Below, piece after piece: positions 48,031 through 51,921 of a stretch of DNA of 64,000 nucleotides (the first letter of the stretch is position 1; the number at the start of each line of letters is the position of its first letter). Below the pieces are notes generated by a model, which saw only the letters and a list, made by a program, of their open reading frames with translations, did not search any database and was not told where the DNA came from. A program made the translations under genes and the position numbers. The stretch is taken from NCBI RefSeq assembly GCF_003258315.1, contig NZ_CP030032.1, positions 1,588,001-1,652,000 on the forward strand, written 5' to 3'. Source of the DNA: Bradymonas sediminis. GTDB taxonomy: Bacteria; Myxococcota_A; Bradymonadia; Bradymonadales; Bradymonadaceae.

Positions 48031-48292
48031 GGTAGTTCCTTTGGTGTGTCAGCATAAGTAAAAACCGCAACAGGGCGGGTTGGCTCGAACTATCACGCTG
48101 AGAAAATGCCGGTCAAGCCGTTAGAGTGACGCGAGGAATTCCCGGGCGAACTTTCGCGCTTTGGCCCCCTCGATAAGCCGTCAGCCAACCCGGCGGGTTG
48201 ACGCATAGTGCGCAGATCTCTAAAGAAAGTTAGGTTTGGATTCGATGGATTCGGTCCATCATCGCAGTGAATTCGGTTTTAAAGGTGTAGTC

Positions 48293-49315
48293 GTGAAAAG
48301 ATATCCAATCATCATCGCTCTGCTTCTGGCATTTTCGGCGATCAGCGTGAGCTCGCCGGCGTTTGCCGAAGACCGCAGCGCAAAAGAAGGCAATATCGTC
48401 CGTTATACCGTCGCCGAAGGCGATACGCTTGGGGGAATCGCGCTAAAATTCGGGGCCGAGTTGGAGGACGTTCAAACGTGGAACGAGCTCAGCGGGTTGG
48501 AGGTCGAGCCGGGGCGTGAGTTGATCGTGAAGTCGGGCAAGAAGGTGAAGAAGAAGCCCAGCGGTCCGGTCCCCATTACCCACCGCGTGCGGCCCGGCGA
48601 TACCTTCGAGGGGATCGCGAAAAAATACAAAGTTAAGATCTCCAGCGTGAAGCGATGGAACCGTGGGGTTAACCCGCGAAAGCTGCAGATCGGCCAGCGC
48701 GTGCGCGTGTACGTGCAGTCCAAAGGCGGCGCGTCGGAGTCCTATGGCAAGGCCAACGGCGGCCGGCTCTATAACGGCGTGCCGCTCAAAGACGGCCCGG
48801 GGCTGCAGGTTCGCTCGAAGGCGCGCGCCTATGCCACCGAGCGCACCACGCGCCTGATTCGCGCCGCGCTGGCCGACGTCAAAGCGCGTTGGCCCGACGC
48901 GCCCGAGGCGATCGCCGGTGACCTGAGCCAGCGCGGCGGCGGTCGGATCCGCCCGCACGCCAGCCACCAATCCGGGCGCGACGCCGATATCAGCTATTAT
49001 TATCGGGGCAACGTCCAACTGCCCAATCTCTACCCGATCACCTACGAGACGCTGGACGCGGTCAAGACCTGGCATCTCTTCAAGACCCTGATCGACACCG
49101 GCAAGGTTGAATTCATCTTCGCGGTTCGCCCGGTGCAGCGCGCGCTCTATGAGTATGCTCGCTCCATTGGTTATACCGAAGAAGAGCTTGAGCCCATTCT
49201 GCAATACCCGCGCCCGAACAGCGCGCGCGAAGGTATCATTCGCCACGTCTCGGGACACGATACGCACTTTCATATTCGCTTTACCTGTGGTCCGCTGGAC
49301 CGTAGTTGCCGCTAA
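48293..49315 (+). CDS. LysM-MepA family penicillin-insensitive murein endopeptidase
   Basis: 340 aa from a GTG at 48293, which has AAAGG 7 nt upstream and begins the signal peptide (KRYPIIIALLLAF...SSPAFA); the upstream ATG frame lacks these features. Two LysM domains (YTVAEGDTLGGIALKFGAEL, HRVRPGDTFEGIAKKYKVKI) bind peptidoglycan. The C-terminal domain has SHQSGRDADISYYY and GHDTHFHIRF, the zinc-ligand H-x-x-G-x-D-x-D and H-x-H motifs of M74 MepA peptidases. Cleaves peptide cross-links in the periplasm and takes part in cell-wall turnover. Confidence 0.93.
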   Translation: MKRYPIIIALLLAFSAISVSSPAFAEDRSAKEGNIVRYTVAEGDTLGGIALKFGAELEDVQTWNELSGLEVEPGRELIVKSGKKVKKKPSGPVPITHRVRPGDTFEGIAKKYKVKISSVKRWNRGVNPRKLQIGQRVRVYVQSKGGASESYGKANGGRLYNGVPLKDGPGLQVRSKARAYATERTTRLIRAALADVKARWPDAPEAIAGDLSQRGGGRIRPHASHQSGRDADISYYYRGNVQLPNLYPITYETLDAVKTWHLFKTLIDTGKVEFIFAVRPVQRALYEYARSIGYTEEELEPILQYPRPNSAREGIIRHVSGHDTHFHIRFTCGPLDRSCR

Positions 49316-49375: not shown

Positions 49376-49837
49376 ATGGCATGGATTGAAGGCACCGAAG
49401 AGCAGACCTTTGTCGTGAATAGGGGTTATGATGAGGTCGCGAATTATTTTAGCGACCCGGCCGAGTTTAAGCGTTGCCTGAGCGACCTGGAGTCGGCCGA
49501 GGAGGTCGAGCCGATGGTGTGGCGCTGGCAGCTTAAGGAGAAGTCCGAGAAGGGCATCACTTTTCGGGCCGATTATACGGTCGCCTACAAGGCCAGCGAC
49601 GGAGAGGTCGAGTGGGAGACCCGCCAGGGCAATATGCGCTCCGCGGGCGTCGCTCGGTTCAAGAAGCTCTCCGACGAGCGCACCGAGGTAAATTACCGCG
49701 AGACCATCGCCACGGATCTGCCGGTGGCGCGTCTGCTCGCCAAGGTCTTCGGGCCCATCGTCGCCCGCGAGATTCGCCGCGGCGTCGGCTCCTTCCTCGA
49801 CGCCTCGCGGGAATGGCTCGAGCATGGCTCCAAATAA
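49376..49837 (+). CDS. SRPBCC (START/Bet v1-like) family protein
   Basis: 153 aa. The N-terminus EQTFVVNRGYDEVANYFSDPAEFKRCL and the strands ITFRADYTVAYKASDGEVEWET and TEVNYRETIATDLPV follow the SRPBCC pattern of a beta-grip cupping a long C-terminal helix (AREIRRGVGSFLDASREWL). Family members bind hydrophobic ligands in a central cavity. It lies 87 bp upstream of the trpB-like gene on the same strand, so it may belong to the same unit; a link in function would be a guess. Confidence 0.8.
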   Translation: MAWIEGTEEQTFVVNRGYDEVANYFSDPAEFKRCLSDLESAEEVEPMVWRWQLKEKSEKGITFRADYTVAYKASDGEVEWETRQGNMRSAGVARFKKLSDERTEVNYRETIATDLPVARLLAKVFGPIVAREIRRGVGSFLDASREWLEHGSK

Positions 49838-49924: not shown

Positions 49925-51133
49925 ATGAGCGGCGAAGAAAAGACTGGACGCTACGGGCGTTTCGGCGGGCGATTTGTGGCGGAAGCGCTGTGGGGACCTC
50001 TCCAAGAGGTCGCCGACGCCTATGAGTTGGCGGTCGCAGACCCCCAGTTCCTTAAACAATTCGATGAACTATTGGACCGCCGCCTCGGCCGTCCCACGCC
50101 GCTGACGCCGTTGCCAAGACTCTCCGAGAAGCTCGGGCGGGCTAGGCTGTGGCTGAAGCGCGAGGACCTGTGCCAGGGCGGAAACTTCACCGCGAACCTG
50201 GCCGCAGCCTACGCCTTGATGGCGGTGCGGATGGGCCGAAAGGCCCTGGTCGGCGAGAGCGCGACCGGGGAGTTTGGCGCCGCGCTCGGCGCGATGGGCA
50301 ACGCCTTGGGCCTGAAGACGCTGATATTTATGGGGCGAGAGGACCAGGATAGCGAGCCGATGGGCGTGCGCCGAATGAAGGAATTGGGCGTGAAGATCGA
50401 GACCGTCGACGCGCCGATTCGCGGGCGTAAGATCGCCCAGTCCGAGGCGCTTCGCTTCTGGGGTACCCACCCCGATGACTATTTTTATTGCCCGAGTTCG
50501 CTCGCGGCGCCGGACCCCTATCCGCGCATGAGCGCGTTCTTCTTGTCGACCATCGGGGTGGAGGCCCGCGTGCAAATCGAGCGCGCGGATTGCACGCCCG
50601 AGTATTTGGTCGCGCCGGTGGGCAGTGGCGGATTCGCCGCGGGATTCTTCGCCGAATTTGCCCCCAACGAGACCATTCAATTGGTCGGCGTTCAGGGCGC
50701 GGGCGAAGGGCTCTCGGGGCGTCACGCGGCCAGCGTGGTCAACGGGCGCCCCGGCGTTTTCCAGGGCACCTATTCCTTCCTCCTCCAAGACGAAGACGGC
50801 CAGATCCTCGCCCCGGCAAGCGCCGCGGCGGGATTGAGCGTGGCCAATGTGGGCCCGCAACATGCCCAGTGGGCCGAGCAGGGGCGGGTGCATTATGTCG
50901 CGGTCGAAGACCGCGAAGCCTATAAGGCGGTCCAAATGCTGTTGAAAGAAGAGGGTCTGTTGGTGTCTCTGGAGTCCGGGCACGCCTTGGCGTACGCGCT
51001 GAAATTATTGCCCACCCTCGACGAGGGGCAGGATATCGTGGTCGGGATTTCGGGCGCGGGTGAGCGCGATTTGGCGCGCCTGGAGGCTTTCCGCGCCGCT
51101 GAGAAGGCCGCCGAATCCGGGGGGCGGGCATGA
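49925..51133 (+). CDS. trpB: Tryptophan synthase beta-like protein lacking the PLP lysine
   Basis: 402 aa, collinear with TrpB from GRFGGRFVAEAL to SGAGERDL. Key positions differ. The PLP-lysine block, usually GGAHKTN, reads GGNFTAN, so Lys is Thr at residue 89. The His of AETGAGQHG is Phe (GESATGEFG). The phosphate loop GGGSNA reads GSGGFA. The Asp of SAGLDxPxVGP is Ser at residue 305. The glutamate of the first block is kept. Canonical PLP chemistry with serine is therefore very unlikely. Its TGA overlaps the trpA-like ATG, so the pair is coupled. It may have a new role, or be a scaffold for the partner. Confidence 0.9.
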   Translation: MSGEEKTGRYGRFGGRFVAEALWGPLQEVADAYELAVADPQFLKQFDELLDRRLGRPTPLTPLPRLSEKLGRARLWLKREDLCQGGNFTANLAAAYALMAVRMGRKALVGESATGEFGAALGAMGNALGLKTLIFMGREDQDSEPMGVRRMKELGVKIETVDAPIRGRKIAQSEALRFWGTHPDDYFYCPSSLAAPDPYPRMSAFFLSTIGVEARVQIERADCTPEYLVAPVGSGGFAAGFFAEFAPNETIQLVGVQGAGEGLSGRHAASVVNGRPGVFQGTYSFLLQDEDGQILAPASAAAGLSVANVGPQHAQWAEQGRVHYVAVEDREAYKAVQMLLKEEGLLVSLESGHALAYALKLLPTLDEGQDIVVGISGAGERDLARLEAFRAAEKAAESGGRA

Positions 51134-51921
51134 ACTCGCGACTCTCTCGGGTGATAGAGCAGGCCAAGATTACCCAGCGACCGATCTTTATGGCGGCGCT
51201 GGTCGCCGCCGACCCTTATCTCGACGCGACCCTGGATTATATGAAGGTGCTCGCCGATGAGGGCGCGGATCTCATTGAGCTGATCCTTCCGTTCTCGGAC
51301 CCCACCTACCACGGCGCGGTGATTCAGCGCGCCTCGGCGCGGGCGCTGCGCGAAGAGGTCGGTTGGGATGAGATCGTGACGCTCGGGCAGCGCTTTCGCG
51401 AGACCCACCAGACCCCGGTGATCCTGTCGACCTATTATAATCGCGTGCTGAGCCGGGGCGTGACACCGTTTATTGCCTCGCTCTGCGCGGCCGATTTCGA
51501 CGGCGCGCTGGTCACCGATTTGCCCTTCGATGAGAGTGAGAAGTTGCGCGCCGCGCTGAGCGAAGCGAACCTGGTCTTGCCGCCATTTATCGCGCCGACC
51601 ACCTCGCTTGAGCGCTTCAAGCATATCGCCCAGGGCTGTGATTCCTTTTTGGTCTGGACCGGCCATACCGGCGGGGACCCGACCATGACGGCGCAGCAAT
51701 TCGAGCAGCGCATGCGCGAGTTTAAGGCGGTGAGCTCGCGCCCAATTCTCGGGTCGATGAAGGTCGCCGACGCCGAGCGTGCCAGGATGGTCTCGCGCCA
51801 CTGCGACGGCGTACTGGTGGGTTCGGCGATGGTGTGGCTTATCGAGGGCCGTGGCTCTCAGACCACCGACACACTCGCGGCGTTTGTGCGCGATCTTCGC
51901 GCCGGAATGGACGCTGAGTAG
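51130..51921 (+). CDS. trpA: Tryptophan synthase alpha-like protein lacking the catalytic Asp
   Basis: 263 aa, TIM-barrel collinear with TrpA. The first catalytic residue is kept (Glu in ADLIELILPFSDP). The second is not: the canonical ADGP block reads YHGA, placing His at residue 61 where the catalytic Asp belongs. The phosphate site also differs (ILGSMKV where VGFGIS is usual), while FLVWTGHTGG and CDGVLVGSAMVWLIEG are recognisable. Coupled to the beta-like gene by ATGA overlap. Indole-glycerol phosphate cleavage by the known mechanism is doubtful. Confidence 0.88.
   Translation: MNSRLSRVIEQAKITQRPIFMAALVAADPYLDATLDYMKVLADEGADLIELILPFSDPTYHGAVIQRASARALREEVGWDEIVTLGQRFRETHQTPVILSTYYNRVLSRGVTPFIASLCAADFDGALVTDLPFDESEKLRAALSEANLVLPPFIAPTTSLERFKHIAQGCDSFLVWTGHTGGDPTMTAQQFEQRMREFKAVSSRPILGSMKVADAERARMVSRHCDGVLVGSAMVWLIEGRGSQTTDTLAAFVRDLRAGMDAE

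Follow-up and report, generated by a model that had tools for sequence, protein, structure and literature searches.

A conserved TrpB-TrpA-like pair lacking canonical catalytic residues of tryptophan synthase in Bradymonas sediminis and its relatives

Bradymonas sediminis carries a coupled pair of genes resembling those for the beta and alpha subunits of tryptophan synthase, the products of which (TrpB* and TrpA*) have lost catalytic residues at both active sites. The pair has very likely ceased to make tryptophan from indole-glycerol phosphate and serves some other conserved function. It lies within the stretch of DNA analysed here (the window; 64,000 nucleotides, positions 1,588,001 to 1,652,000 of contig NZ_CP030032.1), and coupled TrpB*A* pairs are present in 16 genomes of the window's family. 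The locus contains the following features (window positions):

48236..49315, + strand: LysM + M74 murein endopeptidase-like protein, a conserved upstream neighbour
49376..49837, + strand: SRPBCC / Polyketide_cyc2 (CoxG-like) protein, upstream of the TrpB* gene
49925..51133, + strand: TrpB-like protein (TrpB*), 402 aa, without the PLP lysine
51130..51921, + strand: TrpA-like protein (TrpA*), 263 aa, with His replacing the catalytic Asp60
51130..51133, + strand: overlap of the two genes, 4 bp, ATGA, from the coordinates

Neither frame is interrupted or truncated, and the original prediction of clean, full-length frames with a 4 bp overlap held. In most of the relatives with both ends read, the two genes overlap by 1-8 bp, with the starts as chosen. 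A scan for promoters and terminators returned nothing notable.

The proteins were aligned residue by residue with TrpB and TrpA from E. coli K-12, LBCA and other canonical sequences. TrpB* of the window carries the changes H86 to F88, K87 to T89, Q114 to E116, H115 to F117, R141 to S143 and D305 to S305, its phosphate loop GGGSN (232-236) reads GSGGF, and E109, E350 and S377 are retained. Canonical H86, K87, H115, N236 and D305 are missing throughout the TrpB* clade (15/15). The lysine that forms the PLP Schiff base is thus present in 0/15 sequences, position 87 being occupied by Cys in nine, Thr in three, Ser in two and Ala in one. The positions of His86 and Asn236, which together with Ser235 bind the PLP phosphate in the beta subunit (PMC6608616), hold Phe or Tyr in every TrpB*, and Ser235 is variable. 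Glu109, Glu350 and Ser377 are present in most or all members, Glu109 being retained in 13/15 and the Ser377 position holding Ser or Thr in every member that reaches it. In TrpA* of the window, D60 is replaced by H61, Y175 by V175, F22 by A23 and GF (211-212) by SM, and V182-T183 are deleted. Asp60, Tyr175 and Thr183 are missing from every TrpA* member, with His at Asp60 and a deletion at Thr183 in 16/16, while the other alpha catalytic group, Glu49 (Glu50 in TrpA*), is kept in all 16. Linked residues have therefore been lost together, Asp60 with Thr183, which supports it, and, in most TrpB* members, Asp305 with Arg141, with which it closes the beta subunit (PMC9512447). The loss of key catalytic residues from both subunits and the retention of the alpha Glu had been predicted originally and both held, but the losses at Y175, V182-T183, F22 and GF (211-212) had been missed.

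The original prediction would have failed if a small shift of the alignment had restored a lysine, or if close relatives carried canonical residues. No small shift places a Lys in the 85-89 block of TrpB*, and the relatives share the substitutions; misalignment was accordingly rejected, as was a private broken copy, since 15 other genomes have the same changes. A TrpA* profile searched against 379 genomes of the phylum scored 324-428 bits on members and no more than 190.7 on anything else, separating the divergent proteins cleanly from canonical TrpA, and this search of 379 genomes found no TrpB*A* member outside the family. Out-of-family contig matches (L124-L128, L130 and L131) have the canonical Lys, His and Asp, and a wider distribution was rejected; a single-protein query against the contig collection gave no match. 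Within the family, the pair was not detected in five genomes (G001, G005, G006, G007 and G009), and its function is therefore dispensable there. In phylogenetic trees each subunit forms one divergent clade with 100/100 support. Residue conservation was counted over 16 TrpA* and 15 TrpB* sequences drawn from the 16 genomes. Canonical-invariant residues missing in all divergent members number 8 in alpha and 22 in beta, and new residues have become established in at least 90% of members at 12 alpha and 17 beta positions, although the canonical comparison set holds only 9-10 sequences and a larger one would shrink the invariant-residue counts somewhat. The new invariants are His61, Trp176, Gly178, His179 and Ser209 in TrpA* (16/16) and Thr114, Phe117, Ser191, P231, Ser234 and Gln257 in TrpB* (15/15), and new invariant residues occupy old catalytic positions. 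No published description of the pair was found in the literature searched, most subscription papers being outside its coverage.

TrpB*A* is under strong purifying selection. Within the genus Lujinxingia, dN/dS (Nei-Gojobori) is 0.03-0.04 for TrpB* (0.033-0.043) and 0.08-0.15 for TrpA*; between-genus estimates are near saturation and less reliable. Reading frames are intact in all members apart from truncations at contig ends (G004, G015, G017 and G020). The original claim that decay is unlikely was upheld by the open frames, a dN/dS far below 1, the new invariants and the kept overlap, and purifying selection, the original proposal for a check, was confirmed within this one genus. Constraint has also moved within the proteins. 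Mean pairwise identity of the beta loop 85-89 falls from 0.893 in canonical sequences to 0.449 in TrpB*, against a TrpB* average of 0.548. Conservation persists in beta loops 109-117 and 230-237, the former being the best-conserved beta stretch examined (0.870), and alpha loop 2 (53-62) is the best-conserved alpha stretch examined (0.810). It is mainly this shift that leads us to read alpha as the working site and beta as a changed pocket without a Schiff base.

AlphaFold2 models of TrpB* (mean pLDDT 87.8) and TrpA* (mean pLDDT 91.1) match TrpB 5ey5_B (Z 57.7, rmsd 1.6, 379 residues) and TrpA 5kmy (Z 36.6, rmsd 1.7, 258 residues), respectively. Agreement in fold is expected, as the alignments used by the predictor held canonical homologues; the models indicate that the sequences are compatible with TrpB and TrpA folds and say nothing on the function of the sites. 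From the known TrpA site it can be inferred that Glu50, His61 and His179 lie near each other in TrpA*. Documented alpha-beta contact residues (PMC6608616) are mostly kept, namely D56 (D/E), P57 and G181 in alpha and R175 in beta, and at beta K167 most members have K or R, but one genus has Ser. Formation of a TrpB*A* complex is inferred, from sequence alone, from these contact residues and the coupling of the genes.

Bradymonabacteria are described as predators with auxotrophies for numerous amino acids, tryptophan among them (PMC7460792). TrpC, TrpF, TrpD and canonical TrpA are missing in 15/16 carriers of the pair, and IGPS was not found in the window's genome, which is a single contig of 5,045,683 bp and 99.81% complete. 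PRAI and above-cut-off IGPS and TrpD were found in only four genomes (G013, G021, G022 and G023), among which only G013 carries the divergent pair, in addition to a canonical trp operon. The pathway genes searched for were detected in all 14 reference genomes serving as positive controls; TrpE was outside the search. Several carriers are incomplete drafts (77-99%), five of the 15 being at least 96% complete, and a lone absence may reflect an assembly gap, but it is very unlikely that gaps explain the absence of pathway genes across all 15. Canonical TrpB scores above cut-off in the same four genomes and, alone, in the window's genome (G000 C1:949043-950194, - strand; L007 9032-10306). The lone TrpB has intact catalytic residues, a GAHKINH block and a long tree branch, and no trpA was found beside it. 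It was all that a search of the window's genome for a second canonical trpBA pair, suggested with the original prediction, recovered. Since TrpC is missing from this genome, the lone TrpB would be consistent with indole salvage. A second IGPS-PRAI fusion-like frame of 458 aa is present in G013 (C1:5011216-5012562, - strand) besides the copy in the trp operon.

The reading we prefer, with a probability of roughly 0.5, is a division of labour in which TrpB* would be a cofactor-less partner and TrpA* would carry a remodelled site; the complex, the absence of PLP, catalysis and the ligand are all inferred. An ancestor of the family would have possessed an ordinary trp operon in which an SRPBCC gene preceded trpB. 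The upstream trpD, trpC and trpF would have been lost as the predators became tryptophan auxotrophs, with the native trpBA kept and altered. TrpB* would then most likely be a pseudoenzyme without a PLP Schiff base, as it has lost the lysine, the loop around that residue has diverged freely, and Phe or Tyr has replaced two of the three side chains that bind the phosphate. Loss of the lysine is not in itself proof of PLP loss, because an engineered K87T enzyme holds external aldimines, but PLP loss becomes likely once the missing His86 and Asn236 are also taken into account. The role of TrpB* would be to support TrpA* structurally and allosterically. In TrpA*, the TIM barrel is kept together with Glu50 and the framework of loops 2 and 6, and, with its new invariant or near-invariant set of His61, Trp176, Gly178, His179, Ser209 and Met210, this subunit would bind, and most likely turn over, some ligand that is not indole-glycerol phosphate. 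Catalysis by TrpA* is the weakest step of this proposal. A bolder reading, towards which the balance of evidence tips slightly unfavourably, is that of a PLP-free enzyme with a new alpha-site reaction relying on Glu50, His61 and His179 and a beta pocket that binds a different effector or substrate; if true, a textbook allosteric bienzyme would have been repurposed at both of its sites in tryptophan-auxotrophic predators.

The main rival is a sensor or scaffold in which neither subunit is an enzyme and the old alpha-beta allosteric coupling serves to report an aromatic metabolite, which might be tryptophan, indole or a compound from prey. This is possible, given that both classical catalytic centres are gone while the loop framework and contact residues stay, that carriers lack the tested Trp genes and bradymonabacteria are predatory tryptophan auxotrophs (PMC7460792), and that a protein of ligand-binding type, SRPBCC, is encoded beside the pair. 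A constrained alpha site would be expected equally of a sensor, which counts against our proposal. However, no DNA-binding or signalling domain was found in the pair, and Glu50 with two new invariant His residues resembles acid-base or metal chemistry more than simple binding. Our proposal is also weakened by the constrained pocket of TrpB*, evident from the conservation of its loops 109-117 and 230-237, and this subunit may do more than support its partner. Alternatively, TrpB* might hold PLP in the absence of a lysine, through an external aldimine with an amino acid, and act as an amino-acid-responsive switch or a slow enzyme. Engineered Salmonella beta K87T, the same substitution as T89 of the window, forms serine and tryptophan external aldimines in closed complexes (PMC9512447; PDB 1ubs, 2tys), and the prevalence of Glu109, Glu350 and Ser377 among members is also in favour. 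Nevertheless, this reading appears unlikely, as position 87 varies among T, S, C and A, every member has Phe or Tyr in place of the phosphate anchors His86 and Asn236, and Ser235 varies (for their role see PMC6608616).

Activation or stabilisation of a working TrpB by an inactive TrpA*, in the style of Chlamydia trachomatis, where a dead TrpA is needed by TrpB (PMC3937554), is suggested by the lone canonical TrpB of the window's genome. It can be given very little weight, since 14/16 carriers have no canonical TrpB, G013, which has one, possesses its own canonical TrpA, and TrpA* is coupled to TrpB* and not to the canonical gene. Decaying remnants of a lost pathway would account for the disappearance of its other genes and for the five family genomes without the pair, but this explanation is all but excluded by open frames, low dN/dS, new invariants and an overlap kept across the family. 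Returning to the original prediction, several lines of evidence support its proposal of a neofunctionalised TrpBA maintained as a pair: clade-wide conservation, the new invariants, low dN/dS, intact predicted folds, pathway loss and gene overlap. Its choice between regulator, scaffold and enzyme is unresolved, and formation of the complex is only inferred.

Several known systems resemble TrpB*A* in part. Canonical tryptophan synthase, an alpha-beta-beta-alpha complex, shares its gene order, overlap, predicted folds, several contacts, Glu49 and, mostly, Glu109, but the pair lacks Lys87, His86, His115, Asn236 and Asp305 in beta and Asp60, Tyr175 and Thr183 in alpha. The eudicot TSB-like protein has lost the Glu109 equivalent (mostly to Ala), carries an Asp to Glu change and activates normal TSA (PMC12727527); like TrpB*, it descends from TrpB and persists as a non-catalytic partner of an alpha subunit. 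However, its TSA still cleaves indole-glycerol phosphate, whereas TrpA* lacks Asp60, and TrpB* has lost Lys87, His86, His115 and Asn236 while keeping Glu109 in 13/15, so that the TSB-like criteria of Glu109 loss and an intact catalytic alpha partner are unmet. TrpBA of Chlamydia trachomatis (PMC3937554) is likewise a pair without the upstream pathway and with a catalytically inactive alpha subunit, but its beta is an active indole-salvage TrpB, in contrast to TrpB*, where the catalytic lysine is absent in all 15. As neither system has both sites replaced or shares the defining substitutions, TrpB*A* is likely to be a type of tryptophan-synthase-derived pseudoenzyme complex outside the TSB-like and chlamydial classes. 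Plant BX1 and the indole-3-glycerol phosphate lyases, which are TrpA paralogs, also have a TrpA fold in a changed biological role. BX1 retains the indole-glycerol phosphate lyase reaction, whereas 15/16 carriers of TrpA* have no IGPS to make that substrate and Asp60 is His. Tryptophan synthase is a model system in the study of allostery and channelling; pathway loss left its last step free for a new role and, if the proposed account is true, rebuilt sites with kept coupling would offer a probe of allosteric communication after removal of the original chemistry.

There are also consequences for annotation. TrpB* of the window scores 137 bits with PF00291 and 343.5 bits with TIGR00263, which, like the scores of three relatives (305-373), is below the curated cut-off of 392.45. 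TrpA* scores 161 bits with PF00290 and 158.8 bits with TIGR00262, above the curated cut-off of 102.35, as are three relatives (111.6-165 bits). TrpA* therefore passes the NCBIfam trpA cut-off despite the lost Asp, and annotation pipelines would name it tryptophan synthase alpha, giving a false-positive trpA in auxotrophs.

The simplest, and likely, account of the origin of the pair is that it is a remnant of a native trp operon and not a recent duplication. In G023 (family f2) the canonical pair lies in an operon of order trpD-trpC-trpF-SRPBCC-trpB-trpA, and the order SRPBCC-trpB-trpA is common to this operon and the TrpB*A* locus. The canonical G023 protein groups with the divergent clade in the TrpB tree (94/90 support); for TrpA the corresponding grouping is not rejected (p-AU 0.124) and has no positive support. 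Native-operon descent is favoured because the same SRPBCC gene precedes the pair, TrpB groups with G023, and grouping with G013 is disfavoured. Duplication of the canonical G013 pair was assessed by constraining each divergent clade to group with it: this grouping is strongly rejected for TrpA (p-AU 1.7e-7) and marginally for TrpB (p-AU 0.045). The SRPBCC gene adjoins TrpB* upstream in nearly all carriers with that region sequenced. The exceptions are G003, in which no such gene was found, and two genomes with contigs that end at this point (G004 and G017). In G001, which is complete on one contig, the SRPBCC gene directly abuts the MscS-type gene that elsewhere follows TrpA*, and hence both genes of the pair come and go together, and the neighbours can do without them. 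In the canonical operon of G023, the SRPBCC gene between trpF and trpB was located at L073 8734-9255 (- strand; G023:C216). The LysM/M74 and SRPBCC genes remain adjacent in four family genomes without the pair (G001, G005, G006 and G009). They form a conserved pair of their own, with the LysM/M74 gene probably outside the TrpB*A* unit, as it stays with the SRPBCC gene where TrpB*A* is absent.
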